DNA from: Sphingomonadaceae bacterium
GTDB lineage: Bacteria > Pseudomonadota > Alphaproteobacteria > Sphingomonadales > Sphingomonadaceae
Assembly (NCBI GenBank): GCA_014380205.1
Contig: JACMKH010000355.1
Location: forward strand, 1-16,119
Reading direction: 5' to 3'
Length of the DNA stretch: 16,119 bases
Shown: piece after piece, positions 2-15,628 of the stretch
Numbering within the stretch: the stretch's first letter is position 1
Layout: every line of letters starts with the position of its first letter
Made by a program: the position numbers and the translations under genes
Notes under the pieces: generated by a model
The model's database searches: none
Told to the model about the DNA's origin: nothing
The model's input: the letters and a program-made list of their open reading frames with translations, nothing else

Positions 2-1858
2 CCGCCGCCCCAGCAGCGCCTTTACGCCGACCCCGCGCCCGAATCGCTGAGCCCCGCCGAGGTCCGCCAGGTCATCACGCAGGCGGCGGGCGAGGCGCAG
101 GCGCGCGGGAGGCCCGTCGCGATCGCGGTGGTCGACCGCGTCGGCAACGTCCTCGCGGTCTATGCGATGGACGGCGCGGACCTATCGCTCAGTGTGCCTG
201 CCCCACCCGGCCCCGATTTCGACCTCCAGGGGATCAGCCTCCCCGCCCCCGCCGCCGTCGTGGGCGCGATCGCCAAGGCGATCACCGGCGCCTATCTCTC
301 CTCGGCCGGCAACGCCTTCTCGACGCGCACCGCGAGCGAGATCGTCCAGCAGCATTTCCCGCCCGCGCCGACCACCGTCGGGCTCGAGAGCGGGCCGCTG
401 TTCGGCGTCCAGTTCAGCGCGCTGCCGTGCTCGGACCTCGTCCGCCGCTTCACCGGCGCCCCCGGCCCCGACGCGCTGATCGGCCCCAAGCGCTCGCCGC
501 TCGGCCTCTCGGCCGACGCGGGGGGCTTCCCGCTCTACCAGAACGGCGTCGTCGTCGGCGGCGTCGGCATCATGGGCGACGGCGTCTACGGCTTCGATCC
601 CAACCGGCTCGACCGCGACCAAAGCGACGAGGAGGCGATCGCGCTCGCCGCGAGTTTCGGCTTCGAGCCGCCGCGATCGATTGTCGCCGACCGCATCCCG
701 GTCGACGGCACCACGCTCAAATACACCGATGCGCGCGACAGCGATCTCGTGAGCAACCCCGCGAGCCCGCCCGCCTTCGGCTCGATCGCGGGGTCGCTGG
801 TCGATGTGCCCGGTTATTTCGATGCGGCAGGCGGCGTGCTCACGGGAACCGCCTATGGCACCGAGCCCTCGGGCGTGCGCCTTTCGACCGCCGCCGAATT
901 CTCGATCCGCGACGCCTATGTCCTCTCGAACGGATCGGGCGGCAACCGCTTCCCCTTGCGCGCGGGGACCGATGGCGCCGACGTATCGAGCCCGCTCACG
1001 CTCGCCGAGGTCACCGCGGTGCTGGAGGAAGCGTTCGTCGTGATGCGCCGCGCGCGCGCGCAGATCCGCCGTCCGCTCGACAGCCGCGCGCAGGTCACGA
1101 TCTCGGTGGTCGACACATACGGTCGCGTGCTCGGCATCGTCCGCTCGCCCGACGCGCCCATCTTCGGGATCGACGTCTCGCTGCAAAAGGCGCGCACCGC
1201 GGCCTTCTTCTCAAGCGCGCGCGCCGCCGCCTCGCTCGAGGCCAATCCGAGCGCCGACGTCCGCCAGTTCGTCGCCGCCGCGCGCGCTTTTTTCGACGAT
1301 CCCAACGTGCTCACCGGCGCGACCGCCTTTTCCGATCGCGCGATCGGCAACGTCTCGCGGCCCTTCTTCCCTGACGGCGAGGTCGGCCGGCCGCCCGGGT
1401 CTTTCTCGCGCCCGATTGAGAGCTTCAATCCGTTCTCGACCGGGCTCCAGTCGGCGCTCGTGCTCGACAATATCCTCCAGCACGTTGGCTTCGTGCTCGG
1501 TCTTGGGCCGGACACGCCCGCGCGCTGCACCGCCGCGCCCGATGTCGCGGCTGGCCAGAACCCGCTCGAGAACGGCATTCAGATCTTTCCCGGCTCGGTG
1601 CCGATCTATCGCGGCAACACGCTCGTCGGCGGCATCGGCATCTCGGGCGACGGCATCGACCAGGACGACATGATCGCCTTCCTGGGCTTGCACAACGGCG
1701 CGCAGCGCGCGGGCTCGATCGGCAACGCCGACCCCGCGATCCGCTCGGACCGGATCGAGATTGACGTCGGCGGAACGCCCGTCCGCTTGCGCTACGTCAA
1801 CTGCCCGTTCGCGCCGTTCCTCGACACGAGCGACCAGAATGTCTGTCAGGGGCTGTGA
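2..1858 (+). CDS. Tandem GlcG/HbpS-like (DUF336) haem-binding-type protein, 5' partial
   Basis: The reading frame is open from the left edge, so the true start and any signal peptide lie outside the window; 618 residues are visible. The GTG at 128 is internal, because a good GlcG-fold N-terminus (LSPAEV, residue 16 of the visible part) precedes it. Two GlcG/HbpS-like units can be seen. Unit 1 has VVDRVGNVLAVY (43-54) and GGVGIMGDG (186-194). Unit 2 starts near residue 331 and has SVVDTYGRVLGIV (368-380) and GGIGISGDG (543-551). The helix-strand pattern, the G-rich GGxGIxGDG turn and the DxxGxVL strand are typical of this family; HbpS members bind haem and sense redox stress. Both units carry long insertions, so the protein far exceeds the usual 130-150 residues per domain. 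It ends 3 nt before the barrel gene, so they are probably co-transcribed. A haem, iron or redox accessory role for the cytochrome is inference. Confidence 0.8.
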   Translation, partial: PPPQQRLYADPAPESLSPAEVRQVITQAAGEAQARGRPVAIAVVDRVGNVLAVYAMDGADLSLSVPAPPGPDFDLQGISLPAPAAVVGAIAKAITGAYLSSAGNAFSTRTASEIVQQHFPPAPTTVGLESGPLFGVQFSALPCSDLVRRFTGAPGPDALIGPKRSPLGLSADAGGFPLYQNGVVVGGVGIMGDGVYGFDPNRLDRDQSDEEAIALAASFGFEPPRSIVADRIPVDGTTLKYTDARDSDLVSNPASPPAFGSIAGSLVDVPGYFDAAGGVLTGTAYGTEPSGVRLSTAAEFSIRDAYVLSNGSGGNRFPLRAGTDGADVSSPLTLAEVTAVLEEAFVVMRRARAQIRRPLDSRAQVTISVVDTYGRVLGIVRSPDAPIFGIDVSLQKARTAAFFSSARAAASLEANPSADVRQFVAAARAFFDDPNVLTGATAFSDRAIGNVSRPFFPDGEVGRPPGSFSRPIESFNPFSTGLQSALVLDNILQHVGFVLGLGPDTPARCTAAPDVAAGQNPLENGIQIFPGSVPIYRGNTLVGGIGISGDGIDQDDMIAFLGLHNGAQRAGSIGNADPAIRSDRIEIDVGGTPVRLRYVNCPFAPFLDTSDQNVCQGL

Positions 1859-1861
1859 CGG

Positions 1862-3790
1862 GTGGCGGGAGCGCTCTCCCTGATGCTGGCGGCGGTGAGC
1901 GGGCCGGCGATGGCGGCGACGGCGATTCCCCCCCCGAGATGGATGCCGCGAGCCCATTTCGCCGAGCCCGCCCCTTCCTCGCAGATGGAGCGCCGCATCC
2001 CCGGCGTCGCCGAGCCGGGGCTCAACGAAAATCAGGTCGCGGACGATCAAGCCCCCGGCGATGCCGATGAGACGTTGATCGAAGGCCGCCGCCGTCCCGG
2101 TGTTCCTCAGCACGAGCTGCCCGAGGCGGTGACGCAGGAGAATGAGGGCGCGGTGCGCGCGCCGCCGCCCTCGGCATTTCCCGTGGACCAAATCCCGGTT
2201 CCCGATCGCTGGCGGCTTGTCGAGACGCTCGGGCTGGTCAATTCGCGCTGGTCCGACCCCTACAACCAGAATTTCCTCAAGGGCGACCGCCCGATCGTCG
2301 ATCCGCCGAGCTGGCTGCCGATCACCGGCGACGATTGGTTCCTCGTCTTGAACGCGATCGCGGACACGGTGATCGAGCCGCGCAGCTTCCCGACCCCGGT
2401 CGGCGTCCAGACCACCACCGATCCCGACAGCAACGACGTGTTCGGCCGCGCCGACAGCCTCGTCTTGGCGCAGACCTTCATCGCCGGCTTCGCACTGATC
2501 AAGGGATCGACCGCCTATCGGCCACCCGACATCGAGTACCGCCTCACGCTCGCGGGCCAGGTCAATTACGCCGACGTCAACGAGCGCCGCATCCTGTTCG
2601 TCGAGCCGAGCCGGCCGAGCCACCGCACCGACTGGTTCATCGGCGTCCAGGAAGCCTTCGTCGACTATCACATCCGCAACACCTCGCGGCGCTACGACTT
2701 CGATTCGGTGCGCGTCGGCATCCAGCCCTTCCAGGCCGATTTCCGCGGCTTCCTGTTCCAGGACAACCAGCTCGGCGTGCGGCTGTTCGGAACGCGCGAT
2801 TCGAACCGCTTCCAGTACAATCTCGCGGCGTTCTGGCGGCTCGAGAAGGACACCAATTCGGGGCTCAACGACGTCACGCAATCGCCGCGCAGCGATTTCG
2901 TCTTCTTCGCCAACGCGTACCTCCAGGATTTCCCCTTCACCTCGCTGACCAGCCAGCTCAGCGTCACGTTCAACCTCAACCGCGAGGCGGGCGACGTCGA
3001 GATCGACCGCAACGGCTTCCCCGTCCGCCCCGCGCTGCTCGGCTCGCTGCGCGGTCGCGATTACGACGTCGTCTACCTCGGCTACAGCGCCGACGGGCGG
3101 ATCGGACGCATCAACCTGACAGGCTCGCTCTACGCCGCGCTCGGCGAGGACCGGAACAGCTTCTTCACCGACGAGCCCGCCGAGATCAGGGCCTATTTCG
3201 CGGCGGCCGAGGCGAGCTACGACATCGACTGGATTCGCTTCCGCTTCTCGGGCCTTTACGCGACTGGCGACGGCGACCCCTTTGACGGCACCGAGACCGG
3301 CTTCGACGCGATCTTCGAGAACCCGATCTTCGCGGGCGCCGACACGAGCTACTGGATCCGCCAGTCGATCCCCTTCGCGGGCGGCGGGCGCGCGATCGGC
3401 GTCAACGGCCGCAACGGCATCCTCAATTCGCTGCGCTCGTCCAAGGAGCAGGGTCAGTCGAACTTCAACAATCCGGGGACGATGCTCGTCGGCGCGGGCA
3501 TGGATTTCGACATCACCCCCGCGATCCGCCTCTCGGCCAACGCCAATCATCTCTGGTTCGAGAACACTGCGACTCTCCAGGCGCTGCGCAACGAAGGCAG
3601 CATCCCTCGCTCGATCGGCCTCGACCTCTCCGCCGCCGCGATCTGGCGCCCCTTCGCGACCCAGAATATCGTCCTGCGCCTCTCGGGGGCGCTGCTCGAC
3701 GCCAGCCCGGGATTCGCGGATTTGTTCGCGCAGGACCGGCGCTCGAGCCTCTATTACTCCGTCCTCTTCAACGCGATCGTGACGTACTGA
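1862..3790 (+). CDS. Putative outer-membrane beta-barrel (porin-like) protein
   Basis: The product has 642 residues. The start is GTG at 1862, the only usable start after the in-frame stop of the previous gene (1856-1858); AGGGG at 1848-1852 lies 9 nt upstream. Residues 1-18 form a short signal peptide ending GPAMA, though without the usual basic N-terminal residues. A proline-rich, probably disordered stretch follows to about residue 110. The rest alternates polar and hydrophobic residues in strand-length runs with many aromatic girdle residues and Gly/Asn/Asp turns (for example GRINLTGSLYAALGEDRN), and the chain ends in an aromatic residue (IVTY), as barrel proteins folded by the BAM machinery often do. 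No haem motif is present. Its stop overlaps the start of the decahaem gene (TGATG), so translation is probably coupled. By analogy with MtrB or the barrels of porin-cytochrome clusters it may seat the cytochrome in the outer membrane. I cannot assign a named family; an ordinary substrate porin is the alternative. Confidence 0.75.
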   Translation: MAGALSLMLAAVSGPAMAATAIPPPRWMPRAHFAEPAPSSQMERRIPGVAEPGLNENQVADDQAPGDADETLIEGRRRPGVPQHELPEAVTQENEGAVRAPPPSAFPVDQIPVPDRWRLVETLGLVNSRWSDPYNQNFLKGDRPIVDPPSWLPITGDDWFLVLNAIADTVIEPRSFPTPVGVQTTTDPDSNDVFGRADSLVLAQTFIAGFALIKGSTAYRPPDIEYRLTLAGQVNYADVNERRILFVEPSRPSHRTDWFIGVQEAFVDYHIRNTSRRYDFDSVRVGIQPFQADFRGFLFQDNQLGVRLFGTRDSNRFQYNLAAFWRLEKDTNSGLNDVTQSPRSDFVFFANAYLQDFPFTSLTSQLSVTFNLNREAGDVEIDRNGFPVRPALLGSLRGRDYDVVYLGYSADGRIGRINLTGSLYAALGEDRNSFFTDEPAEIRAYFAAAEASYDIDWIRFRFSGLYATGDGDPFDGTETGFDAIFENPIFAGADTSYWIRQSIPFAGGGRAIGVNGRNGILNSLRSSKEQGQSNFNNPGTMLVGAGMDFDITPAIRLSANANHLWFENTATLQALRNEGSIPRSIGLDLSAAAIWRPFATQNIVLRLSGALLDASPGFADLFAQDRRSSLYYSVLFNAIVTY

Positions 3791-6700
3791 TGTCGGCGCG
3801 AGCCCTTCCACGCCTGGCCCTCGTCCTCGCTGCGCTCATCGCGCTCGCGGCAGTCCTCTCGGCCCCGATCATCGCCGCCGAAGGCGAGATCGCGGTGATC
3901 AGAGACTACGCCGCCGCGGGTGTGCTCGCCGGGCCCGCGCCGCGCACGCAGGAGCAGGCAGAGGCCGACGCCAAATCCGCCGGGTGCCTGAGCTGCCACG
4001 TCCGGACCGACCAGGCGACGATGCACGCGACCCCCGCCGTGGTCCTCGGCTGCACCGATTGCCACGGCGGCAACCCCAATGTGCGCCTCTCCGACGCGAC
4101 GCTCTCCCCCGACGCGCCCGCCTATCTCGAAACCCAGAACCGCGCGCACGTCCTCCCGCTCTACCCCGAAAGCTGGCATCATCCCGCGAGCGCCAACCCG
4201 CAGCGCACCTACACGCTGATGGCGCGCGAATCGGCCGAGTTCGTCCGCTTCATCAACCCCTCCGACTATCGCGTGGTCCGCGAATCGTGCGGCTCCTGCC
4301 ACATCGAGATCATCGAGGCGGCCGAGCGCTCGCTGATGGCGACCGGGGCGATGCTGTGGGGCGGCGCGGCCTACAACAACGGGATTCTGCCGTTCAAGAA
4401 TTACCTGTTCGGCGAGGCCTACACGCGCGAGGGCGAGCCCGCGATGGTCGTCTCGCCCGGCGATCCGCACGGCGCAGTCACCCCAGAGCAGGCCGCGCGC
4501 GGCGCGCTCCCCGAAATGTATCCGCTGCCGACCTGGCACGTCGTCCCGCCGGGCGACATCTTTCGCGTGTTCGAGCGCGGCGGGCGCAACATCGGCACCC
4601 AATTTCCCGAGATCGGCATTCCCAACATCGGCGGCATCATCCAGCGGCTCGAGGAGCCGGGCCGGCCCGACCTGCGCCAGTCGAACCGGGGGCCCGGAAC
4701 GGGACTTCGCGTCTCGATCCCGATCCTCAATATCCACAAGACCCGGCTCAACGACCCCTTCACCTGGTTCGCGGGGACCAACGACCAGCCCGGCGACTAT
4801 CGCCATTCGGGCTGCGCCTCGTGCCACGTGATCTACGCCAACGACCGCGAGCCGCGCCACAGCCTGATCTACGCGCAGCACGGTCGCGACGGCCAGACCG
4901 CGACGGTCGATCCGACTATCAACCGGTTGAGAGAGCGGCATCACGAGGAGGTCGATACCGCGGTGGCGCCGGGCCAGTGTGGCGCGTCATTCGATCGTGT
5001 GATGGAGCGGATCACGTCGGAGGGGGAGGGCGATCACGCTACCAGCGAGGCGCACCCCAGCGAGACCGTGCCCGCGCCCGAGGAAGGCGGTCACGGCGCC
5101 ATCCGCCAGCCAGAGGCCAACCAATCCGCCATCCCTCCCGCGCTCCGCGAGCGCGGCCATCCGATCCGCCACGCCTTCACGCGCCAGATTCCGACCTCGC
5201 AATGCATGTCGTGCCACATGCACCAGCCCAACATGTTCATGAACACCTACCTCGGCTACACGATGTGGGACTATGAGTCCGACGCGCCGCTGATGTGGCC
5301 CGCCGAGCAGCTCTACCGCACCGCCGAGCAGGCCTTCGCGATCCTCGACCGCAATCCCGAGATGGCCGCGACGCGCGGCTGCTGGGGCGATCTCGATTTT
5401 CTCCGCAACGTCTATGATGTCGTCAACCGCGCCGCAGAGCGCACGCAGTTCGCCGACTATCACGGCCACGGCTGGAACTTCCGCGCGATCTTCCGCCGCG
5501 ACCGCGCGGGCAATTTGCTCGACGAGAATGGCGAGATCGTCCCCCCCGACGATCCCGAGCGCTTCCGCCGCGAGGGCGAGCCCGATTTCGTCCCGATCGG
5601 AACCAATCCGGGCCGCGCGGTCCACCTCATGGACATCCACGCCGAGCGCGGGATGCAATGCGCCGACTGCCATTTCGCGCAGGACAACCACGGCAACGGC
5701 CTGATCTACGGCGAGGTCGCCAACGCCGTCGAGATCGGCTGCCGCGACTGCCACGGCACCGCCGACGCCTATCCGACGTTGCTCACCTCGGGCCCCGCCG
5801 CGCCGCCCTCGGGGACCAACCTCACCCTGCTCCGCAACGCCGACGGCCGCCGCCGCTTCGAATGGACCGAGGACACGCGCGGCGCCCGCGTGCTGATCCA
5901 GCGCTCGGTGGTCGATCCGAGCCTCGAATGGGAAGTCAGCCTCGTCCGCGACAGCGTCGACTCCGACCACCCCGACTTCAATGAGCGCGCCGCGCGCTCC
6001 AAGCTGATGGGCCGCAGCGGCGCGGACACCGGCGTCTACGAATTCGGCTCGGGGATAGCCCCCGCCGACCGCGCGCACCGCGACGAGGAGATGGCATGCT
6101 TCACCTGCCATCTTTCCTGGACGACCTCATGCGGCGGCTGCCACCTCCCGATCGAGGCCAATGCGCGCACCACGAGCCATCGCTACGAGGGCGGCGAGGC
6201 GCGCAACTTCGCGACCTACAACCCCCAGGTCGCGCGCGACGAGATGTTCCAGCTCGGCCGCCACCAGACCACGCGGGGCAACGTCGTCGCGCCCGTGCGC
6301 TCGTCCTCGGCGCTCGTGCTCTCCTCGACCAACATCAACCGCGAGCGCATCTACGTCCAGCAGCCACCGATCTCGGCCGCGGGCTATTCGTCGCAGGCCT
6401 TTGCTCCCCACTTCCCGCACACCGTTCGCCGCACCGAAACCAAGACCTGCACCGACTGCCACCTCTCCGAAGCCAACGACAACAACGCGATCATGGCGCA
6501 GCTGCTGCTCAACGGGACCAATTACGTGAACTTCGTCGGCATGCACGCCTGGGTCGGCATGGAGAGCGGCTTCGAGGCGGTGCGCGTCACCGAATGGGAG
6601 GAGCCGCAGGCGGTGTTCGGCTCCTATCTCCACCACTACGCCTATCCCGATTACTGGCGCATCCACGCCGAGGACCACGACCGCGAGCTGCGCGAGTTCA

Positions 6701-7992
6701 CGCGTGGCGAGCGGCTCGACGGCGACATGTCGGGCGAGACGCGGCCGATCGAGGAAATCCGCAACATCACCCAGCAGACCTCGGGCGCGGCGCGCTGCCT
6801 CCAGCTGCGCGGCGAGTATATGTTCGTCGCCGAGGGGCGCGGCGGCTTCCAGGTCTATGACGTCGCTTCGATCGCCAACAAGGGCTTTTCCGAGCGCATC
6901 GTCACCGCGCCTTTCTCCCCGCTCGCGCAGGACATGCAGGTCTCGAGCGAGAACGCGACCTGCATGGCGCTGCCGACCAACCAGAATATCGCGCCGGCGC
7001 GCAACCGCAACATGGCCGCCACGATGGTGACGAGCGCGGCGGGTGAAGCGATGAGCATGCTCGCCTACAATCAGGAGCAGGCGATGCACCCGCTCTACGA
7101 TTACGCCTTCGTCACCGACAGCGAGGAGGGGCTGATCCTCGTCGATGTCGGCACGCTAGCCGACGGCGAGGTGCGCAACAACGACCTCAGCCGCGCGCTG
7201 ACCTGGAACGAGAACGGCGTGCTCGCGGGCGCGCGCCACATCACGCTCGGCGGCCATTACGCCTATATCGCCGCCGATGTCGGCCTCGTTGTGCTCGACC
7301 TGAACGACCCGCTCCAGCCCCGCCACGTTGCGACCATTGCGCTGCGCGATCCGCGCGCCTCGGCGCTCCAGTTCCGCTACCTCTGGGTGACCACCGCCGA
7401 GGGCGTCGAGCTCATCGACGTCACCACGCTCAACGAGCCCCGCCACCTCCCCGAGGCGACCTTCGCGCTCGCCGACGCGCGCCGCCTCTATGTCGCGCGC
7501 ACTTACGCCTATGTCGCGGCGGGCCGCGACGGCCTCGTCATCCTCGACGTCGCCAACCCCGAGCGCCCAGCCGAATATCGCCGCGTCGCCTGGCCCGGCG
7601 AGACCCCCGACACGCAGGATGTCGTCATCGGCAGCACCAATGCCTCGCTATTCGCCTATGTCGCCGACGGCGTGAACGGCATGAAGCTGCTCCAGCTCAC
7701 CAGCCCCGACAGCCAACCCAACTATTACGGCTTCTCCCCCGCCCCGGTGCCCGAGCTGATCGCATGGGTAAGGACGCCGGGGCGCGCGCTGGCTATGTCC
7801 AAGGGTCTCGATCGCGACCGGGCGGTTGACGAGACCGGAAGCCAGATCGCCGTGTTCGGGCGCCTCGGCTCGCGGCCCTTCAGCCGGGGGGAGATGGAGG
7901 CGCTGTTCCTCAACTCGCGGGGGCTGCCCTATCGGGTGACCGATGAGGTGGACATGGAGGATTGGGTAACTAGGTCATTGGTGGCGCATTGA
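3790..7992 (+). CDS. Exported decahaem cytochrome c with C-terminal LVIVD-type beta-propeller
   Basis: The product has 1400 residues. Residues 1-30 are a Sec signal peptide (basic MSARALPR, long hydrophobic core, AA end). Ten CXXCH haem attachment motifs start at Cys 66, 88, 167, 342, 472, 624, 651, 770, 781 and 887. From about residue 1000 the protein changes to six propeller-type repeats starting near 1010, 1105, 1157, 1197, 1239 and 1288, each of the form YxYVAxxxGLxxxDVxxP, which is the LVIVD repeat signature. No CXXCH lies in the propeller. The ATG overlaps the barrel stop codon and has no clear ribosome binding site, which fits translational coupling. The haem domain should carry electrons in the periplasm or on the cell surface; the propeller may bind a partner, substrate or surface. 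Residues about 385-460 are a hydrophilic, acidic insertion with a lone Cys 397. The pairing with a barrel suggests an outer-membrane electron conduit, but the protein does not look like MtrC/OmcA by eye. Haem count is certain; function is inferred. Confidence 0.9.
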   Translation: MSARALPRLALVLAALIALAAVLSAPIIAAEGEIAVIRDYAAAGVLAGPAPRTQEQAEADAKSAGCLSCHVRTDQATMHATPAVVLGCTDCHGGNPNVRLSDATLSPDAPAYLETQNRAHVLPLYPESWHHPASANPQRTYTLMARESAEFVRFINPSDYRVVRESCGSCHIEIIEAAERSLMATGAMLWGGAAYNNGILPFKNYLFGEAYTREGEPAMVVSPGDPHGAVTPEQAARGALPEMYPLPTWHVVPPGDIFRVFERGGRNIGTQFPEIGIPNIGGIIQRLEEPGRPDLRQSNRGPGTGLRVSIPILNIHKTRLNDPFTWFAGTNDQPGDYRHSGCASCHVIYANDREPRHSLIYAQHGRDGQTATVDPTINRLRERHHEEVDTAVAPGQCGASFDRVMERITSEGEGDHATSEAHPSETVPAPEEGGHGAIRQPEANQSAIPPALRERGHPIRHAFTRQIPTSQCMSCHMHQPNMFMNTYLGYTMWDYESDAPLMWPAEQLYRTAEQAFAILDRNPEMAATRGCWGDLDFLRNVYDVVNRAAERTQFADYHGHGWNFRAIFRRDRAGNLLDENGEIVPPDDPERFRREGEPDFVPIGTNPGRAVHLMDIHAERGMQCADCHFAQDNHGNGLIYGEVANAVEIGCRDCHGTADAYPTLLTSGPAAPPSGTNLTLLRNADGRRRFEWTEDTRGARVLIQRSVVDPSLEWEVSLVRDSVDSDHPDFNERAARSKLMGRSGADTGVYEFGSGIAPADRAHRDEEMACFTCHLSWTTSCGGCHLPIEANARTTSHRYEGGEARNFATYNPQVARDEMFQLGRHQTTRGNVVAPVRSSSALVLSSTNINRERIYVQQPPISAAGYSSQAFAPHFPHTVRRTETKTCTDCHLSEANDNNAIMAQLLLNGTNYVNFVGMHAWVGMESGFEAVRVTEWEEPQAVFGSYLHHYAYPDYWRIHAEDHDRELREFTRGERLDGDMSGETRPIEEIRNITQQTSGAARCLQLRGEYMFVAEGRGGFQVYDVASIANKGFSERIVTAPFSPLAQDMQVSSENATCMALPTNQNIAPARNRNMAATMVTSAAGEAMSMLAYNQEQAMHPLYDYAFVTDSEEGLILVDVGTLADGEVRNNDLSRALTWNENGVLAGARHITLGGHYAYIAADVGLVVLDLNDPLQPRHVATIALRDPRASALQFRYLWVTTAEGVELIDVTTLNEPRHLPEATFALADARRLYVARTYAYVAAGRDGLVILDVANPERPAEYRRVAWPGETPDTQDVVIGSTNASLFAYVADGVNGMKLLQLTSPDSQPNYYGFSPAPVPELIAWVRTPGRALAMSKGLDRDRAVDETGSQIAVFGRLGSRPFSRGEMEALFLNSRGLPYRVTDEVDMEDWVTRSLVAH

Positions 7993-8067
7993 AAACATGC
8001 CCCCGAGAGGGAATTAGTAACAAATGCAGATCCACACGTTAATATTCATATCTGCCACAATGCTAAT
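7993..8067. other. Convergent intergenic gap, no clear terminator
   Basis: These 75 bases separate the stop codons of the two convergent operons. Base composition falls abruptly here from GC-rich to AT-rich. The only structure I see is a weak inverted repeat, GCAGAT at 8026-8031 and ATCTGC at 8050-8055, with an 18-base loop and no T-run, which is too weak to call a terminator. Confidence 0.4.
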
Positions 8068-8442
8068 TCATGGAAATTGATCCAGAAGGTCTGCGATGAG
8101 AGAGCTTTCGTTATCGTGCATCATCTTGGTTATCAATTCATTTCTATCTTCCTGAGACATCGTAATGCTACTGTCTCCCCCAGACATTGATGATATCATA
8201 GAGTTAATCGCATGAGAATAGCTGTCTACCATTCCGTCTTGCTCGTTCATACAGCGGGATCGCGCAGCTCTCGTCAAAGTTTCTAAAGGTTGCTCCGTAT
8301 CAATCCATGGCAGAATAACTCCTCTCATGCACTGCTTCCAGGACGTTACCGCATTTGAATATGCTGGATTGGAATAGGTCGCAGTCTGAGAAAATGCTGT
8401 TGTCGACCAAAAACAGCATACTAATAATATCCGCATTTTCAT
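8068..8442 (-). CDS. Small secreted protein of unknown function, AT-rich gene
   Basis: The product has 124 residues. I chose the ATG at 8442 because AAGGAG (8455-8450 on the minus strand) sits 7 nt upstream and translation begins directly with a signal peptide, MKMRILLVCCFWSTTAFS, probably cleaved before Gln19. An upstream in-frame start would add a basic leader without a ribosome binding site. The mature part is about 106 residues, hydrophilic and Ser/Met-rich, with two cysteines (38 and 64) that could form a disulfide. I recognise no family. The gene uses many A/T-ending codons (ATT, AAT, TCA, AGT), unlike every other gene in the window, and sits in a patch of about 38% GC by my count of 8041-8160. 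That suggests recent acquisition. It follows the phosphoesterase gene on the same strand after a 57-nt gap and may have its own promoter. Confidence 0.7.
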   Translation of the reverse strand: MKMRILLVCCFWSTTAFSQTATYSNPAYSNAVTSWKQCMRGVILPWIDTEQPLETLTRAARSRCMNEQDGMVDSYSHAINSMISSMSGGDSSITMSQEDRNELITKMMHDNESSLIADLLDQFP

Positions 8443-8449
8443 TAGATTT

Positions 8450-8455
8450 CTCCTT
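8450..8455 (-). promoter_or_regulatory. Ribosome binding site for the small secreted protein
   Basis: AAGGAG on the minus strand, 7 nt before the ATG at 8442. It fixes this start over the longer in-frame option at 8481. Confidence 0.75.
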
Positions 8456-8499
8456 CTTTTTGGTGCTCTGCCTGGCAACAATTGCCTGCGGAATTTGGC

Positions 8500-9354
8500 C
8501 TATCCGTCCCCCAACCTCTCCTCGATCAAATGCCGCACGAGCGGTCGCATCCCTTCGTCAAACCGCGCCAATTCCACATGATCGTCCGCATCGTCGAAAT
8601 GCGTGACGAGCTGCGCGCCGTTCCACCAGTGGAGCGCGTAGGCGGGGGCGTCGGCGATGATCATCGGGCGGCCGTCGGGGCGATCCGGGTCGATCGTCGA
8701 GAGATCGAGCGCGACCTGCGGGGCGGTCGAGGGCGCGACCGCGAGCGTACGGCCCTCCCAGTTCGTCGTCATCGGGCGGTGGATGTGGCCCGCGATCAGG
8801 CCGACGATATTGTCGGCCCCCACCATCGCGTCGCGCAGCCGCGCGATCCACACGGCCTCGGGGTTGCTCGTCATCCAGTCGATCCCGGTCTCGACCGGCG
8901 GGTGGTGGAGCACGATCGCGGTCGGCTTGTCGCGCTCCTCGGCGAGCCGCGCGGCGAGCCAGGCGGCGCGCTCGGCGCAGAAGGCGCCGCCGTGACGGCC
9001 CTCCTCGAGTGTGTCGAGCAGGATCAGCCGCAGCGGGCCCTTCTCCCAGGTGTATTGGACAAAGCCGCCGGCGAAGGGAACGTCCGGAAAATGGCGCGCG
9101 AAATTGCCGCGATGGTCGTGGTTGCCGACGCACGGGAGCACGGGGAACGAGCAGGCCTCGAGCGCGACGCGCAGGCGGCGGTAGGAATCCGAATCACCTT
9201 TGTCGGTGAGGTCGCCGGTCGCGAGCAGCAGCTCGGGACGCGGGTGGAGCTCGATGATCCGGTGGAGCACCTGATCGAGCCGCCGCCGGTTGAACTCGGC
9301 GGGGTTGTCGGGATCGAAGCCAATGTGGAGGTCGGTGACCTGCGCGATCAGCAT
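8500..9354 (-). CDS. Calcineurin-like metallophosphoesterase, CpdA (3',5'-cyclic-AMP phosphodiesterase) type
   Basis: The product has 284 residues, near the usual length for class III cyclic-nucleotide phosphodiesterases of the CpdA/GpdQ group. The start is ATG at 9354, with GGAGG (9364-9360) 5 nt upstream and the first metal motif immediately after it; the longer open frame upstream belongs to no protein. The full set of dimetal ligands is visible: D8 and H10 in TDLHIGF, D48 in GDLTDKGD, N78 and H79 in GNHDHRGN, H150 in LHHPPVE, H190 and H192 in GHIHRP. There is no signal peptide, so it should act in the cytoplasm. Family members cleave cAMP or glycerophosphodiesters, and these activities are hard to separate by sequence. 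The gene lies 49 nt after the FHA-decahaem gene and belongs to the same operon as a protein with two cyclic-nucleotide-binding domains, which favours a role in lowering cAMP or cGMP here. That link is inference. Confidence 0.87.
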   Translation of the reverse strand: MLIAQVTDLHIGFDPDNPAEFNRRRLDQVLHRIIELHPRPELLLATGDLTDKGDSDSYRRLRVALEACSFPVLPCVGNHDHRGNFARHFPDVPFAGGFVQYTWEKGPLRLILLDTLEEGRHGGAFCAERAAWLAARLAEERDKPTAIVLHHPPVETGIDWMTSNPEAVWIARLRDAMVGADNIVGLIAGHIHRPMTTNWEGRTLAVAPSTAPQVALDLSTIDPDRPDGRPMIIADAPAYALHWWNGAQLVTHFDDADDHVELARFDEGMRPLVRHLIEERLGDG

Positions 9355-9359
9355 GAAAT

Positions 9360-9364
9360 CCTCC
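9360..9364 (-). promoter_or_regulatory. Ribosome binding site of the metallophosphoesterase
   Basis: GGAGG on the minus strand, 5 nt before the ATG at 9354. It separates the true start from a frame that stays open a further 600 bases upstream through the cytochrome gene. Confidence 0.75.
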
Positions 9365-9403
9365 AGGGCACGGGGAGGACATGGACGGAGCAAGCCACCA
9401 CCT

Positions 9404-11227
9404 TCATCTACCTCGATCCCCCTGCTCGCGCGCCCGCCGGCCTTGGGCATCGCGCCCGCCGCCGCGCACATCGCGTCCCCGGACCAGATACGGTGCGCCA
9501 TCGTCGGCGTGATAATTGTGACACAGCGCACAGGTCGAGGGAACGAGGTCGCCGTGCGCGTCCTCGCCGCCGTGGCAGTCGCGGCAGGTCGCGATGCCGG
9601 GGATGAGGATGTCCGAGGCGCTTTCGGAGCGCTCGGCCGCGTGGCATTCGGTGCAATCCTCGTTGACGTGGGCGGCATGGTCGAACCAGCCGCGCCGCAT
9701 GTAGCGCGCGATCTGGCGCACCGGGAGGATGCGATACTCGGCCCCGCGCGGCGGCGCCTGGACGCGGTGGCAGTCGAAGCACACGCCGCCGTCCGAAAAG
9801 GCGCGGCGGATCGCGCGGTCGGCGCCGCTGTAGCGCGTCGCGACGGCGAATTGGTACCGCCCCACCGTTCGCGCGCGGTTATCGCCGCCGGGCCGCCGCC
9901 GCGCCATCCCCGAAAGGTCGATCGGGCGCGGCGGCGCGGTGCCGCGATAGAAGGCGCGGATGTCGGCGACGACCTGGGCGGGCTCGCCATGCCGCAAGGT
10001 GCGCACCGTCCCGCCGATCCGGTCGAAGGCGAGGCTGTGGCACATCTGGCAATCCCCCTCCATCGTCACCGGCATGAAGCGCACGCCGTCGGCGGTCGGC
10101 GTGTGGCAATCGGCGCAGCCCAGCGATTCGCCGAAGCCGTAGCGCCGCGACAGCCGCTGCGCCATCCGCGCGACGCCGTTGGTGGTCGAGAGGTGGAGCT
10201 CGTGGGGGAATTTGAGGCCGGTGTCCTCTTGCGGCCGCCGATCGAGCGAGAGCCGCGCGAAGCTCGGCCGCGCGCCGGGCTGGTTGCCCGGGCTGGTCAT
10301 CACCACGGGGCGGAACTCGGGGTGGTCGCGCGCGAAATCGCCCGCGTCGAGCAGCCGCGTGTCGGTCAGCCGCGACTCGAGCCCGGTGTGGCACTCGGCG
10401 CAGAAGCGCTGCGGGGTCGGCGCCATCGCGCCCGCGCCCTCGTGCTCGGTATGGCATTCGACGCACGCTTGGCGGGGGCGGTTGAAGAAATCGGCGAAGA
10501 CGAGCCCGACGCGATCGGTGAAGTCGGGGGGCGCGACCGCGCGCGCCATGCGATCGCGATCGGCGTGATCGTGGACGTCGGCATGGCACGAAAGGCAGCT
10601 CGAATCGCGGACCGAGACGAACGCCTGCTGGTGGCATGCCTGGCAGTCGTTCTCGAGATTGGCGTGCGCCGAAGAGAGCGCGCCGGTCGACCACATCGTG
10701 TCGGCGTGAAAGCCGTCGGGACGCTGCTCGACGCCGCGCGACTGGTAAAAGGTCCAGACCGGCCAGGCGAGGAAGGCCGCGAGGATCAGGAGCGCGAACA
10801 TCCACGCCGACCGGCGCTTGCCCGGCACCGTTCCCGCGAGCCCGTGCGCGTCGCGCTCGGGCGCCGTCACCTCCTCATCGCGCGTCACCGTGACGACGAG
10901 CGCGCCGGCCTCCTCGCCTTCGCCGAGGCTCACCACGAGCCGGTGCGGGCCGATCCTTATGGCGCCTCCGCGCCGCGCGTTGATCGCCGCGCGGCTCGCC
11001 GAGCGCCCGTCGACCTTGACCGGAACGTCCTTCTCGGTCGCGATCATCGCGTCGGCCTCGCCGCGCCGCGTGATAGTCGCATGGTGGAGCATCACGCCGA
11101 GATCGGTGAGGTGGACGTCCGAATCGGCGGCGCGACCGACGGTGAGCGCGTCCTTCTCGATCCGCCGCGCCCGCACGATCTCGCGGCCCCCCGCGGTGCG
11201 CGACACATGGCGGACGATAAAGGCCAT
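9404..11227 (-). CDS. FHA domain - transmembrane helix - periplasmic decahaem cytochrome c fusion
   Basis: The product has 607 residues. The ATG at 11227 lies 5 nt after the cytochrome b stop and begins directly with an FHA fold; the frame stays open to 11830, but that part only shadows the upstream gene. Residues 1-105 resemble FHA: VGRAADSDVHL (30-40), HHATI (48-52) and a final strand RIGPHRLVVS (91-100). The GR pair is kept, but the position that is normally Ser in the SRRHA loop appears to be Met46, so phosphothreonine binding may be lost. A single helix spans about 142-160 after a basic KRR, giving FHA inside and the rest outside. Ten CXXCH motifs start at Cys 195, 211, 255, 276, 371, 393, 483, 525, 548 and 566. 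The last 25 residues are Arg/Gly-rich and of unclear meaning. The likely role is a membrane-anchored periplasmic carrier taking electrons from or to the adjacent cytochrome b. Domains are clear; the role is inferred. Confidence 0.9.
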   Translation of the reverse strand: MAFIVRHVSRTAGGREIVRARRIEKDALTVGRAADSDVHLTDLGVMLHHATITRRGEADAMIATEKDVPVKVDGRSASRAAINARRGGAIRIGPHRLVVSLGEGEEAGALVVTVTRDEEVTAPERDAHGLAGTVPGKRRSAWMFALLILAAFLAWPVWTFYQSRGVEQRPDGFHADTMWSTGALSSAHANLENDCQACHQQAFVSVRDSSCLSCHADVHDHADRDRMARAVAPPDFTDRVGLVFADFFNRPRQACVECHTEHEGAGAMAPTPQRFCAECHTGLESRLTDTRLLDAGDFARDHPEFRPVVMTSPGNQPGARPSFARLSLDRRPQEDTGLKFPHELHLSTTNGVARMAQRLSRRYGFGESLGCADCHTPTADGVRFMPVTMEGDCQMCHSLAFDRIGGTVRTLRHGEPAQVVADIRAFYRGTAPPRPIDLSGMARRRPGGDNRARTVGRYQFAVATRYSGADRAIRRAFSDGGVCFDCHRVQAPPRGAEYRILPVRQIARYMRRGWFDHAAHVNEDCTECHAAERSESASDILIPGIATCRDCHGGEDAHGDLVPSTCALCHNYHADDGAPYLVRGRDVRGGGRDAQGRRAREQGDRGR

Positions 11228-11232
11228 CGCCG

Positions 11233-12123
11233 CTACCAGTAGAAGAACACGCTGACGATGTGCGCCGAGAGCGCGGCGATCGTGGCGAAGGTCATCGGGA
11301 CGTGGACGTAGAGCCAAGCCTCGAGCAGCGCGCGCACGCGCATGTGGCTCCTGATCCGCTGGAGCGCGGCGACCTTGCGCGCGAGCAGCGCTTCGACCCG
11401 GTCGAGGTGCGGATCGGGCGCGCGCAGCAGCAGCGTCTCGCGTCTGATCTCGGCGAGCGAATCGGCGCTCGTGCCGAGAAATCGCGTTCCGAACAGCCGC
11501 CGCCGCACGCTCGCCCAGGCCACCTCCTCGTCGAGCGCGCGCTGGACGATCGCCGCGTGACGCGTGTCGAGCGGCTGCGCCGCCTCGCGCAGCTGCCGGT
11601 CGAGCTCCCCGACCGTCGCCAGCATCTGCTCCTCGGTGGTCTCGTCGCGGTTGTCCGAGAGGTAGCGCGGCAGAAAGCCGTAGACGGTGATCCCGAACAA
11701 TCCCGAAAGGATGACGAGCAGCATCAGCGCCCAAGCGAGCGTGTGGACGTTCCAGCCGAGCTGGAAGCCGGTGTGCAAGGTCGCGATGAAGATCAGCGAT
11801 ATGCCGAGATAGACATGCGCCGAAGTCCATGCCTTCAGTGACCAGCGCCCCGGCGTCATCGCGCGCTTGCGCACGCCGAGCAGCGTCAGCCAGAGGATGA
11901 GCAGCGCGCCGATCGTCCCCAGCGCATAGCCGTACCAGCTCCCCCCATTATGGCGCGGCTCGACATCGACGAGCAGGTAGGAGACGACCGCAAGCAGCGC
12001 GACGACGCTCGCGAGCTTGGCCCAGAACAGGCCGCGGTAGCGCAGGAAGCTCTCGTGGCGCGCGGCGTGGCGCTGGCTCGCGCTATCGTAGCTTTCCGCC
12101 CCCTCCGCCCCCCGCGTCGCCAT
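11233..12123 (-). CDS. Five-helix membrane protein, probable dihaem cytochrome b
   Basis: The product has 296 residues. ATG at 12123 lies 3 nt after the stop of the iron-sulfur oxidoreductase gene, with GAGGAGGGG near the end of that gene serving as a somewhat distant ribosome binding site. Predicted membrane helices are at about 33-53, 63-84, 102-122, 126-150 and 268-294. Helix 3 has His103 and His117, and helix 5 has His274 and His288. Both pairs are 14 residues apart, the spacing by which two helices hold two stacked b haems in bis-histidine cytochromes b. His127 is a further candidate near the start of helix 4. A charged, probably helical loop (about 155-265) sits between helices 4 and 5. 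I recognise no exact family; it resembles the cytochrome b561 / ferric reductase-like group in general plan. The position between a cytoplasmic oxidoreductase and a periplasmic decahaem fits a transmembrane electron carrier or quinone-reactive subunit. Confidence 0.78.
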   Translation of the reverse strand: MATRGAEGAESYDSASQRHAARHESFLRYRGLFWAKLASVVALLAVVSYLLVDVEPRHNGGSWYGYALGTIGALLILWLTLLGVRKRAMTPGRWSLKAWTSAHVYLGISLIFIATLHTGFQLGWNVHTLAWALMLLVILSGLFGITVYGFLPRYLSDNRDETTEEQMLATVGELDRQLREAAQPLDTRHAAIVQRALDEEVAWASVRRRLFGTRFLGTSADSLAEIRRETLLLRAPDPHLDRVEALLARKVAALQRIRSHMRVRALLEAWLYVHVPMTFATIAALSAHIVSVFFYW

Positions 12124-12126
12124 GTC

Positions 12127-14571
12127 TCAGATCGTCCCCTCCTCGAGCCGCGCGACCGAAAGGAACTGCTCGGGCGCGACGCGGATCGCCGCGCCCGTCG
12201 GGCAGGCGCGCACGCACGCGGGCCCGCCCTCGATCCCCGCGCACATATCGCACTTGACCGCGACCTTGGGCGTGTCGGGCGAGACTCGCTTGTCGATCCA
12301 GTCGTGGCTCGGCTCGCCGGGACCCGGTCCGAAGCCGAACAGCAGCCAGCTCAGCAGCGGCGGCTTCCTCGGCGGCTTCTTCTCCATCCGGATCACGCCA
12401 TAGGGGCAGTTGCGCTGACAGTTGCCGCAGCCGATGCAGGTCTCGTCGATGAACACCTCGCCGTCGACGCCGCGGTGGATCGCGTTAGGGGGGCAATCGG
12501 CCATGCAGTGCGGGTGTTCGCAATGGCGGCATGAAGTGGGGACGTGGAGGTGCGCGTAGGTGCGCCCCGCCTCGCGGTCGAGCCGCGAAAGGCCGTCGTG
12601 GCTGTCGGCGCAGGCTTTTTCGCAATTGTCGCAGCCAACGCACAGATTCTCGTCGATCAGCAGCACGTCGGTCGCCTCGCCGATCCCGCCCTCGACGAGG
12701 AAGGATGCGATCGACGAATACATGTCGACCGCGCCCGAAAAGCTGTCCTTCTTCGCCTCGACATAGTCGTTGAGGTCCTGCCGCGTCTCCATCTCGCGGT
12801 GCGCGCGGGCGAGCAGCGCGGGGTTCTTCTCGAGCAGCGCCTTGAACGCCGCGCCGTCGATCCTGATCACCTCGGACTTGACCGCCGCGCGCACGGTCGC
12901 GGTGCGCCGGCCACCCTCGAGCACCGCCATTTCGCCGACATAGGTCCCGGCGGGCAGGTACGAGAGGAAGACCGGCTTTCGCCCGATCGTCTTCTCGACG
13001 ACCATCGAGCCGACGCGGATGACGAAGATGTCGTAGCCTTCCTGGCCTTCCTCGATGATCGTGTCGCCCGCCTTGACCGGAACGATCTCGGCCGTCTCGA
13101 CGATCGGCGCGACATCCTCGCGGGAGAGCCCCGACCCGAACATCTGGAGCAGCTGGCGCTCGATCGAGATGCGCGTGATCTCGGCCTTGGCGGGCGGCAC
13201 CTGGCTCTGGAGCTTGAGCGCGGCCATGCGCGGAATTTCGACGCAGATCGCGTCCTCGCACGCGATCACGGTTGCGCCGCGCCGCCGGCCCGAGATCAGC
13301 CCGACCTCGCCGAAGATCGACCCCGTTTCGATCGGCACGGTCTTCGCGGGATCGTCGGGATCGACCTGGACGAGCACCGAGCCCCGCGCGATCGCGAACA
13401 GTGAATCGCCGGGCTCGTTGCGATCGAAGATCGTCGCGCCCGCGCGATAGAAATGCGCCTCGCTGTCGAGCATGAACTCGCGCATCTGCAGGGGCGTCAT
13501 CGGTTCGAGGATGGTGACGCTCGAGCGCAGCGCCTCGAGCCATTCGGCGACGCTGAGCCGGCCGGGCAGGCCCTTGAACTTGCCCTCGAGGATCGGCTCG
13601 TCGGCGGGCTTCAGCGCGGTGTTGCCCTTGATGAACTCGACCACGTCATGGCCCTGGTTCATGCAATGCTTGATCAGCGGATAGCCCGCCAGCGCGCCGA
13701 TCACATAGATGCCGGGCTTGCTGCTCTCGAAGGTCGGTGAGAGCCTGGGGAAGGCGGTCCGGTCTGGACCCGAGAACTCGACCCCGCACGCCTCGACGAA
13801 GGCGCGCGGCGGGGCCGAGCCCATCCGCGCGATGACGCGGTCGCAGCGCGCCCGCGCCTCGCCGTCGCGCGTGTCGAACACGATCTCCCCGGCCTCGATC
13901 GCCGAGGCGGTGGTCTCGGTCAGGATGATCATCCGCCCCGCGTCCTGCGCGGCGGTCAGCGCCTGGACGTTGGCGGCCTTAGCGGTCGCGAAATCGGCCG
14001 AGCGGTTGATGATCGTGACCATATTGCGCTGCTCGGGATCCGCAGCGAGCCCCAGCGCATTCTCGATCCCCGCGTCCCCCGCCCCGATCACGGTGATATG
14101 CTCGTCGACATATTCCTGCGGGTCGTCGAGCGTGTATTGCACGACCGCGCCCTCGCCCACCGGGCAGCGCACGAGATTGGGATTGCCCTGCGTCCCGATC
14201 GCGAGCACGATCGTCTCGGTCTCGATGGTCGCGCCGTCCTTGAGCGCGATGCGGAACGCCCCTTGCTCGCCCTCGATCGAGACCACCTCCGAGTTGAGCC
14301 GGACGTTGACCTTGTTTCCCCCGGTCTGCTCGTCCCAGGTCCCGAGCACCTTCTCGCGCTTGCCCGCCGCGAAATCGAGGTCCGAGCGCAGCACGAGCTG
14401 GCTCGGCGTCGCCATGACGTGCTTGCCCTTCTGGTATTTGTAGATCGTGTCCGAGAGGTGATCGGCCTTTTCGAGCAGGACATGCGCGAGCCCCAGCTGC
14501 GCCGCGCGCGACGCCGCGCTGAGCCCGGCGGGGCCCGATCCGACGATCGCTATGCGGTAAGTCTCAGACAC
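12127..14571 (-). CDS. Fusion oxidoreductase: FAD/NAD(P)-binding domain, two cyclic-nucleotide-binding domains, four [4Fe-4S] clusters
   Basis: The product has 814 residues. I start it at GTG 14571 because AGGAGG (14585-14580) is 8 nt upstream and the FAD motif follows at once; an ATG at 14616 would add 15 unrelated residues. Residues 1-320 form a thioredoxin-reductase/YpdA-like fold with GSGPAGL (11-17) and GAGDAG (163-168) but no CXXC active site. Two cNMP domains follow, with intact phosphate-binding cassettes FGEVGL...RRRGATV (420-435) and VGEMAVLEGGRRTATV (545-560). The C-terminal part is a DmsB/NarH-like ferredoxin with cysteines 644, 647, 650, 654; 681, 684, 689, 693; 712, 715, 718, 722; and 774, 777, 786, 790. 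There is no signal peptide or membrane helix, so it is cytoplasmic. It heads the minus-strand operon. The likely role is moving electrons between NAD(P)H or another cytoplasmic partner and the cytochrome b, gated by cAMP or cGMP. Domains are clear; partner, direction and gating are inferred. Confidence 0.92.
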   Translation of the reverse strand: MSETYRIAIVGSGPAGLSAASRAAQLGLAHVLLEKADHLSDTIYKYQKGKHVMATPSQLVLRSDLDFAAGKREKVLGTWDEQTGGNKVNVRLNSEVVSIEGEQGAFRIALKDGATIETETIVLAIGTQGNPNLVRCPVGEGAVVQYTLDDPQEYVDEHITVIGAGDAGIENALGLAADPEQRNMVTIINRSADFATAKAANVQALTAAQDAGRMIILTETTASAIEAGEIVFDTRDGEARARCDRVIARMGSAPPRAFVEACGVEFSGPDRTAFPRLSPTFESSKPGIYVIGALAGYPLIKHCMNQGHDVVEFIKGNTALKPADEPILEGKFKGLPGRLSVAEWLEALRSSVTILEPMTPLQMREFMLDSEAHFYRAGATIFDRNEPGDSLFAIARGSVLVQVDPDDPAKTVPIETGSIFGEVGLISGRRRGATVIACEDAICVEIPRMAALKLQSQVPPAKAEITRISIERQLLQMFGSGLSREDVAPIVETAEIVPVKAGDTIIEEGQEGYDIFVIRVGSMVVEKTIGRKPVFLSYLPAGTYVGEMAVLEGGRRTATVRAAVKSEVIRIDGAAFKALLEKNPALLARAHREMETRQDLNDYVEAKKDSFSGAVDMYSSIASFLVEGGIGEATDVLLIDENLCVGCDNCEKACADSHDGLSRLDREAGRTYAHLHVPTSCRHCEHPHCMADCPPNAIHRGVDGEVFIDETCIGCGNCQRNCPYGVIRMEKKPPRKPPLLSWLLFGFGPGPGEPSHDWIDKRVSPDTPKVAVKCDMCAGIEGGPACVRACPTGAAIRVAPEQFLSVARLEEGTI

Positions 14572-14579
14572 GACACGCC

Positions 14580-14585
14580 CCTCCT
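14580..14585 (-). promoter_or_regulatory. Strong ribosome binding site deciding the GTG start of the fusion oxidoreductase
   Basis: AGGAGG on the minus strand, 8 nt before GTG 14571. It lies inside the coding part implied by the alternative ATG at 14616, which argues for the shorter protein. Confidence 0.8.
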
Positions 14586-14636
14586 GACCGCCGACGCCCT
14601 TTCGCCACCTTACCATGCGCGCGTCGAGGGGCTAGA

Positions 14637-14668: not shown

Positions 14669-15628
14669 ATGAGCGAATCTCAACGCATCGCACCGAGCCG
14701 CCTCGCGCTCGCCGGAGCGGCGGCGATTGCGCTGTTCGCGATCGGCTATAGCGTTGCGCGCGGCGACGATCCGGAGGTGACGGCGAGCGGCGCGCCCGAA
14801 GGAGCGCCCCAGGCTATGGCGGCGGCCGAGGGCGGCGATTTCGCCGAGCTGATCCCCCAGCTCGAGGCGCGGCTGCGCGACGATCCCGAGGATGAGGAGG
14901 GCTGGGCGCTGCTCGGCCTCTCCTATTATCAGACCGGGCGCTTCGACGAGGCGGCCGAGGCTTACCGCCGCGCGGCCGCGCTCAACCCGACGCTCGCGCG
15001 CCATCGCTCGGCGCGCGGCGAGGCGCTCGTGCTCGCCTCTTCGGAGGAAGGCTTTCCGCGCGACGCCGCCGCCGCGTTCCGTGAGGCGATCCGGCTCGAC
15101 TCCGCCGATCCGCGCGCGCGCTATTTTCTCGCCGTCGAAAAGGACATGGGCGGCGACCGCGAAGGCGCGCTCGAAGACTGGATCGCGCTGCTCGAGGACA
15201 CGCCGCCCGGCGCGCCGTGGGAGGCCGACCTGCGCCGCCTGATCGCCGAGGTCTCGCACCAGACCGGGATCGACGTGTCGGATCGGGTGCCGCCGCCCGG
15301 CCGGACGGACGCGGACGACGCACCCGCCGCCGCAACGCGGGGAATCCCGGGACCGACGCGCGAGCAAATGGCCGCCGCGCGCAACCTCCCGCCCGGCCAG
15401 CAGGAGATGATGATCGAGGACATGGTCGAGGGTCTCGACCAGCGGCTGCGCCGCAATCGCAACGACGCCGACGGCTGGATCATGCTGATGCGCTCGCGCA
15501 TGCAGCTCGGCCAGACGGCGCAGGCCAGCCAGGCATGGCGGCGCGCGCGCCAGGCGTTCGCGGGCAATTCGGGGCAGCTCCAGCGCATCAACGCTTCGGC
15601 GCGAACCTTGGGAGTTCCCGGCGCTTAG
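14669..15628 (+). CDS. Membrane-anchored TPR protein, CcmI/CycH-like (cytochrome c maturation type)
   Basis: The product has 319 residues. ATG at 14669 is preceded by GGGAG (14660-14664). Residues 11-30 form one membrane helix near the N-terminus, and an Ala/Gly/Pro linker follows. A clear TPR motif runs from about 77 to 107 (WALLGLSYYQTGRFDEAAEA), with further TPR-like helices at about 115-175 and 262-300. The C-terminal stretch MVEGLDQRL...GWIMLMRSRMQLG (252-281) resembles the periplasmic TPR part of alphaproteobacterial CcmI/CycH, which hands apocytochrome c to the haem ligase. The N-terminal two-helix part of classical CcmI is missing, so a general TPR scaffold is the alternative and I give no symbol. 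It is divergent from the redox operon and converges on ispE with one base between stop codons. Its presence next to genes that need 20 covalent haems is suggestive, but it may be ordinary chromosomal neighbourhood. Confidence 0.78.
   Translation: MSESQRIAPSRLALAGAAAIALFAIGYSVARGDDPEVTASGAPEGAPQAMAAAEGGDFAELIPQLEARLRDDPEDEEGWALLGLSYYQTGRFDEAAEAYRRAAALNPTLARHRSARGEALVLASSEEGFPRDAAAAFREAIRLDSADPRARYFLAVEKDMGGDREGALEDWIALLEDTPPGAPWEADLRRLIAEVSHQTGIDVSDRVPPPGRTDADDAPAAATRGIPGPTREQMAAARNLPPGQQEMMIEDMVEGLDQRLRRNRNDADGWIMLMRSRMQLGQTAQASQAWRRARQAFAGNSGQLQRINASARTLGVPGA

Follow-up and report, generated by a model that had tools for sequence, protein, structure and literature searches.

A split seven-gene multihaem cytochrome module in Sphingomonadaceae and a proposed electron pathway from NAD(P)H to the outer membrane

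The two convergent operons in the DNA analysed here (hereafter the window, the 16,119 nucleotides of one contig from a Sphingomonadaceae bacterium) are the split form of a seven-gene module, F-C-H-X-B-D plus a gene for a pentahaem cytochrome, c0. Many bacteria from water and soil carry this module, and its proteins F, C, H, X, B and D almost certainly work together. We lean towards the reading that they form a cAMP-responsive pathway from NAD(P)H to the outer membrane, where the decahaem cytochrome D would reduce an acceptor.

The window spans contig C7 completely; the genome has 498 contigs and is 87.6% complete. The X-B-D operon lies on the plus strand, and F-C-H lie with a phosphodiesterase-like gene on the minus strand (Table 1). 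X and B are separated by 3 bases, B and D overlap by 1 base, and the gaps within F-C-H are 3 and 5 bases. An earlier note on this DNA had reported ten CXXCH motifs in each of two proteins, 16 cysteines of the ferredoxin type, a barrel and two His-x13-His pairs, and all of these were found again in the sequence. The first ATG is at 14616, 45 bases beyond the 14571 at which the note had ended the second operon; the difference is one of start-codon choice. The small ORF between the two operons had no match at E ≤ 1e-10 in 120 loci (L078-L197).

Table 1. Genes of the window, with positions counted from its first letter
Gene	Position	Strand	Description	Evidence
X	2-1858	+	HbpS/GlcG-like domains, 5' end lost at contig start	PF03928 E 2.3e-24
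B	1862-3790	+	AlgE-like outer-membrane beta-barrel	predicted model, ~18 long strands by count
D	3790-7992	+	exported decahaem cytochrome, C-terminal LVIVD repeats	10 CXXCH; PF08309 E 2.2e-18
Small ORF	8068-8481	-	intergenic between operons, signal-like start	
Phosphodiesterase-like	8500-9354	-	metallophosphoesterase	SpdA model E 3.8e-38
H	9404-11227	-	FHA-like N-terminal domain, one hydrophobic helix (142-160), decahaem domain	10 CXXCH; hydropathy
C	11233-12123	-	probable dihaem b-type membrane cytochrome	H103/H117, H274/H288
F	12127-14616	-	FAD/NAD(P) oxidoreductase, two cyclic-nucleotide-binding domains, four [4Fe-4S] motifs	PF13738, PF00027 (two stretches), Fer4 families
CcmI/CycH-like	14669-15628	+	TPR protein, cytochrome c maturation type	PF23914 E 1.7e-22

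To follow the two operons through the host family, each of the six proteins was searched in 149 genomes of that family (E ≤ 0.001; for F, E ≤ 1e-60). The raw counts were 53 genomes for D, 54 for H, 56 for C, 54 for B, 54 for X, and 52 for F. Genomes with only weak matches were then dropped (G142 and G246 for H; G136, G142, G194, and G246 for C; G239 for B; G139 for X), which left 53 genomes each for D, B, and X and 52 each for H, C, and F. Finally, all six genes were present in 52 genomes, X, B, and D alone in one, and none in 96, in a count that ignores the shared ancestry of the genomes. The sole exception (G146) is a genome that is 67% complete. In addition, the distance between D and H varied among the 52 genomes: they lay within 12 kb in 27, shared a contig at a distance of 12 kb or more in 15 (90 kb or more in 11 of these), and were on different contigs in 10, some of these assemblies being fragmented. 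Thus, D and H are often unlinked and still found together, and linkage does not explain their co-occurrence. Presence also differs within at least one genus, g82, in which one genome (G222) has D and H and another (G158) has neither. The earlier note had proposed that the two operons make one system and had set independent occurrence in most genomes as the outcome that would speak against it. We found the opposite, because the operons co-occur even when unlinked, the same 52 genomes hold all six genes, and a single operon is found elsewhere. Its remark that such a system would be unexpected in a sphingomonad did not hold, since D is found in 53 of the 149 family genomes and also in many Gammaproteobacteria.

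All six genes were present in 57 of the 120 loci, collinear on one strand in the order F-C-H-X-B-D in 45 and convergent like the window in 12. The collinear loci include 44 from named genomes and one (L097) from the host family. For named genomes with D, the best 80 of 92 loci were kept, and the taxa among them include Steroidobacter, Marinobacter, Alcanivorax, Colwellia, Pseudoteredinibacter, Stagnimonas, Nitrosomonas, and Phenylobacterium; a Marinobacter genome (L113) bears the set. Among these 80, 51 had 9 kb or more of sequence before D, and 40 of the 51 held all six genes, four held all but X, and seven held fewer, namely L101, L102, L107, L109, and L160 (with Phenylobacterium, Caulobacteraceae or Alphaproteobacteria titles), L123, and L175. 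B adjoined D in 50 of the 51 loci and X was present in 46. The only locus of the 51 with D followed by c0 and with none of B, X, F, C, and H in the 9.8 kb upstream was L175 (9863-14901). Plasmid records carried D in 13 cases, 12 of them from Sphingobium and one from Sphingopyxis; those 12 Sphingobium records also have H. Replicon pMSHV of Sphingobium herbicidovorans MH has its operons convergent as in the window, preceded by c0 and with two extra genes between them. A search of the Sphingopyxis indica plasmid, which bears c0-X-B-D, did not find H on that plasmid. Meanwhile, a locus titled as a Klebsiella pneumoniae MAG (L159) also bears the cluster, and its D is 54% identical to that of the window; this bin is probably mislabelled.

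The set was also sought in a sample of the phylum. D was found in 5 of 299 genomes at E ≤ 1e-15, with only two candidate places scored per genome, and the C profile matched 18 of 299 at E ≤ 1e-8, five of which were the genomes bearing D. Six of the other 13 were read, and G250, G273, G288, G289, G391, G402, and G443 were left out. Among the six, G398 has F-C-H-X heading to the contig end, with D not found, G249 has F-C-H close to a contig end, and G270 and G376 have distant look-alikes. The last two, G281 and G397, have F-C-H and no X-B-D in the stretch read. In both, F and C are fused into a protein of about 1120 residues, which is followed by an H-like cytochrome with nine CXXCH (L211:3052-8143, L212:9850-15653), and D was not found genome-wide with two candidate places scored per genome. 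Thus, the inner part of the module is modular and can serve other partners. Distant look-alike sets were seen at L214:2794-8495 and L213:7717-13616, with a c554-like cytochrome, a flavoprotein that resembles F but is shorter, a membrane protein like C (in L213 a match from the genome search only), and a ten-haem H-like protein.

A seventh member of the module, the c554-like cytochrome c0, emerged when the neighbouring genes were clustered; 82 of the 120 loci have it. It directly follows D in 51 loci, all of them named, directly precedes X in 29, and has another position in two. A CX4CH motif is present within its first 170 residues in all 82 and four CXXCH in 78 of 82, which gives five haem sites and brings the seven-gene set to 25 c-type haem sites. 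In the window genome, a match to the first 102 residues of c0 stops at base 3380 of contig C226, which is 3381 bases long; c0 is therefore missing from the window because of a contig break. The earlier list of parts for each layer of the envelope lacked this pentahaem cytochrome.

The cofactor motifs of the module proteins are well preserved. In F, the 16 cluster cysteines were invariant in 73 of 73 aligned sequences, and the phosphate-binding cassettes of the cyclic-nucleotide domains were found. In C, H103, H117, H274, and H288 form two His-x13-His pairs that were invariant in 71 of 71 sequences and are candidate haem ligands. Cytochrome b561 (PF01292) was matched by 25 of 30 members of the C family at E ≤ 0.1 (best 5.1e-6), the window C not being among them, and the best rows of C against PDB sequences had only E 0.48 or worse.

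For the two decahaem cytochromes, the alignments were made after duplicates and sequences beyond set length limits had been removed. All ten CXXCH were invariant in 98 of 98 sequences of D and in 78 of 78 sequences of H (window included in each), so these motifs do not arise by chance. Among unfiltered ORFs, 98 of 106 for D and 76 of 79 for H had ten CXXCH and the remainder had fewer. D was far more conserved than H, with 404 of 1400 positions conserved at 95% or above against 58 of 607. H has exactly ten non-CXXCH histidines conserved in at least 90% of its 78 sequences, and D has 15 conserved non-CXXCH histidines for ten haems, up to five of them spare. At least 6858 proteins were related to D at E ≤ 0.001, and the closest named ones among the matches listed were from Parasphingopyxis. 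The window D matched only the families LVIVD, Cytochrome_C7, and Cytochrom_c3_2. The model of its haem part (residues 31-990) had a mean pLDDT of 51.1, too poor for a fold comparison, and the profile of this part had no PDB sequence match at E ≤ 0.1; H had no PDB sequence relative at the limits used. In addition, we considered the FHA-like domain of H as a clear reader of phospho-threonine. This is doubtful, since only 58 of 78 sequences keep the arginine that follows the conserved glycine.

The predicted model of B has about 18 long strands, and structure comparison gives it the 18-strand porin fold of the AlgE/OprD type, with 11-12% identity in the AlgE rows. MtrB was absent among the best 50 rows of either fold comparison of B, which by itself excludes nothing. 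The window B matched no Pfam family at E ≤ 0.01 and had no PDB sequence relative at the limits used. Eight of 46 members of its family matched Alginate_exp weakly at E ≤ 0.1 (best 3.3e-4) and no other family; the window B had no such match. When the faces of the barrel were assigned by hydropathy, conservation was 0.75 on the polar face against 0.58 on the apolar face. Near the N-terminus (window 1862-2210), 69 of 94 sequences have an RPG-type basic motif before a conserved DRW site. This motif lies in a poorly modelled tail and is possibly a docking site.

The relatives of the first gene X look like lipoproteins from their sequences, a trait that the earlier note had not picked up, and a permissive lipobox-like pattern, for which no control was run, occurs in 60 of 81 aligned. 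X matched HbpS/GlcG-like chains in the PDB weakly. Four loci (L116, L117, L149, and L150; two Nitrosomonas and two titled Gammaproteobacteria) have F-C-H-B-D and c0 with no X nearby, and X is thus possibly dispensable. Meanwhile, a two-partner-secretion transporter of the ShlB/FhaC type was seen near X-B-D in 8 of 122 loci (L095, L101, L102, L105, L107, L109, L160, and L199).

Some neighbours of the module point to regulation. The phosphodiesterase-like gene, an accessory gene whose product resembles phosphodiesterases of cyclic nucleotides, scored 131.7 bits against the SpdA model, below the cut-off of 400. It was found in 34 of 122 loci, here only alphaproteobacterial ones, in which it adjoins H or D or lies close to one of them. 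A CHASE2-cyclase-like match was found in 11 of 122 loci, and Pfam gave CHASE2 and cyclase domains in all three proteins tested. Taken with the cyclic-nucleotide domains of F, these two kinds of neighbour suggest control by cAMP. The CcmI/CycH-like neighbour, also accessory, was found in 26 of 122 loci and in none of the best 80 named loci, and it is frequent in sphingomonads. In named loci outside the host family, an FHA protein (25 loci) and a PP2C phosphatase (23 loci), each assigned by Pfam on one member, lie beside the cluster, downstream of c0 or D (L103, L113, L115, L137, L145, and L173 among them).

On the basis of these parts, we propose the following order of transfer. F would oxidize NAD(P)H in the cytoplasm through its FAD and pass electrons along four [4Fe-4S] clusters, and its two cyclic-nucleotide domains would make this step responsive to a cyclic nucleotide. 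The two b haems of C would take the electrons through the inner membrane. H, which would be anchored in this membrane, would accept them in the periplasm on ten bis-histidine haems, and c0 would probably relay them from H to D. At the outer membrane, D with the barrel B and the lipoprotein X would then reduce an acceptor. We prefer outward flow because pyridine nucleotide is an input of low potential and because no quinone enzyme or oxidase was recognized in the set. D may act outside the cell, with electrons crossing the outer membrane. Such a last step is favoured by the barrel gene, which adjoins D in 50 of 51 loci, and by the lipoprotein-like X, present in 46 of 51; the solute or polysaccharide porin fold of B and the enzyme-like conservation of D weigh against it. 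A haem wire of the MtrA type inside the bore of an 18-strand porin is unlikely. The full pathway also has to face three cases that count against it, namely the D of L175, which has c0 and none of B, X, and F-C-H nearby, the F-C-H of G281 and G397 without X-B-D, and the Sphingopyxis indica plasmid, on which H was not found beside c0-X-B-D.

Other readings of the module were weighed. The same chain from NAD(P)H through F, C, H, and c0 to D could end in the periplasm, with D an enzyme for a soluble substrate, B a porin that admits this substrate, and X a protein that binds a cofactor or product; no electrons would then cross the outer membrane. The fold of B is that of the solute and polysaccharide porins AlgE and OprD/Occ, its polar face is conserved above the apolar one, and D is conserved like an enzyme rather than a wire and has spare histidines. 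Furthermore, no lipobox was seen at the N-terminus of D on inspection by eye, and L175 has D with no B nearby. However, B adjoins D in nearly all the named loci with enough upstream sequence, and in known porin-cytochrome conduits the barrel gene adjoins the cytochrome gene. In addition, the haem part of D, which lacks a PDB match, gives no known enzyme to back the reading, and D carries LVIVD repeats, a type described in cell-surface proteins in the available part of the source (PMC2447325). We consider a purely periplasmic reductase less likely than the full outward pathway.

Electrons could also run the other way, from an extracellular donor oxidized by D inward to NAD(P)+. Such uptake needs the same parts, and haem wires conduct in both directions. 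However, starting from common extracellular donors, the reduction of NAD(P)+ by way of b and c haems is energetically uphill, and the module holds no recognizable quinone enzyme or oxidase. In the available part of one study, Marinobacter species, a genus in which one genome here bears the set, were reported to be capable of cathode oxidation, but the Marinobacter isolates of that community gave only weak current (PMC5371394). We regard uptake as improbable. Finally, two unrelated cytochrome operons might merely lie side by side, as the apparently unrelated small ORF between them and the F-C-H genes without nearby X-B-D in G281 and G397 could suggest. Against this, F, C, and H are present in 52 of the 53 family genomes with D, even unlinked, and one collinear order is kept in 45 loci. 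Chance adjacency of the two operons is ruled out by this co-occurrence and by the single-operon arrangement, and the reading of unrelated operons, refuted in the main, has hardly any probability left.

The outward pathway that we prefer resembles several known systems in part. As in MtrCAB and the OmcB-type conduits of Geobacter, multihaem cytochromes are encoded with a barrel, and there are inner-membrane, periplasmic, and outer parts. However, the MtrB and PioB barrels have 26 or more strands and form a wide sheath, whereas B models as an 18-strand barrel of the AlgE/OprD type and has no match to an MtrB-type family. MtrCAB is fed by a quinol oxidase of the CymA type, and the input here would be a flavin/iron-sulfur protein and a dihaem b protein; D, moreover, has LVIVD repeats. 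The Pfam search found no MtrC-family domain (PF22113) in the window D. However, this domain is precomputed for a few D relatives (e.g. P0059 and P0091), and the window H scores 32.5 bits, narrowly above the cut-off of 30, along about 31 residues that surround haem motifs. With Cyc2 the module shares a proposed redox role at the outer membrane, but Cyc2 is one fused haem-barrel protein, and B has no haem motif (no CXXCH in 96 of 96 sequences). The earlier statement that the set matches neither MtrCAB nor Cyc2 is thus borne out as far as tested, because B and D fail the features that were tested.

B also differs from the alginate exporter AlgE in its low identity, in its place in a cytochrome operon, and in the few and weak Alginate_exp matches of its family. 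In ferric reductases and NADPH oxidases, electrons pass from NAD(P)H to FAD, then to two b haems and outside. Here, by contrast, the flavin belongs to a separate protein that also has iron-sulfur motifs and cyclic-nucleotide domains, and the electrons would continue to a decahaem. Nearest by content among the systems found is the extHIJKLMNOPQS cluster of Geobacter, which, in the available part of its description, has a porin-like protein (ExtI), several multihaem cytochromes (ExtM and ExtN among them), and a membrane cytochrome b (ExtP), together with a Rieske protein, ExtO (PMC5877670). F, with FAD, cyclic-nucleotide domains, and four [4Fe-4S] motifs, differs from ExtO so described, and ExtI is given 12 membrane segments in the part available of one source (PMC5877670) and 21 in that of another (PMC6148476). 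D showed a local likeness to the NCBIfam ExtM model (69.9 bits against a cut-off of 800, best stretch 50 residues), and two of its relatives scored 70.3 and 68.5 bits against the same cut-off. D thus falls short of ExtM, the one Ext model followed. A survey of MtrCAB reported, in its available part, a single alphaproteobacterial case (PMC8805035), against 53 of 149 genomes of one family that have D.

Meanwhile, a survey of multihaem clusters contains neither 'sphingo' nor 'alphaproteobacteria' in its main text, as far as that text was available (PMC11475568). A keyword search of the open-access PMC literature, preprints and subscription papers aside, found no description of the cluster among the matches listed. 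We suggest that the module may represent a new class of trans-envelope conduit, widespread in Alpha- and Gammaproteobacteria. It would take its electrons directly from NAD(P)H instead of from quinol, would be controlled by a cyclic nucleotide, and would cross the outer membrane by means of an 18-strand AlgE-type barrel, a surface decahaem with a propeller-like domain, and an HbpS-like lipoprotein.

Multihaem electron systems of the outer membrane are best known from metal-respiring bacteria, and the Sphingomonadaceae are mostly aerobic. The seven-gene set occurs in about a third of the sampled genomes of this family, judged by D, and in marine and soil Gammaproteobacteria as well. The strong conservation of D makes it likely that the protein has a definite job. 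If the pathway reaches outside the cell, common aerobes would have a regulated route by which NAD(P)H could be used for extracellular reactions, and if it does not, they would have a widespread periplasmic reductase. In both cases, the module is a concrete gene set, and it is present in the cultured Sphingobium herbicidovorans MH.
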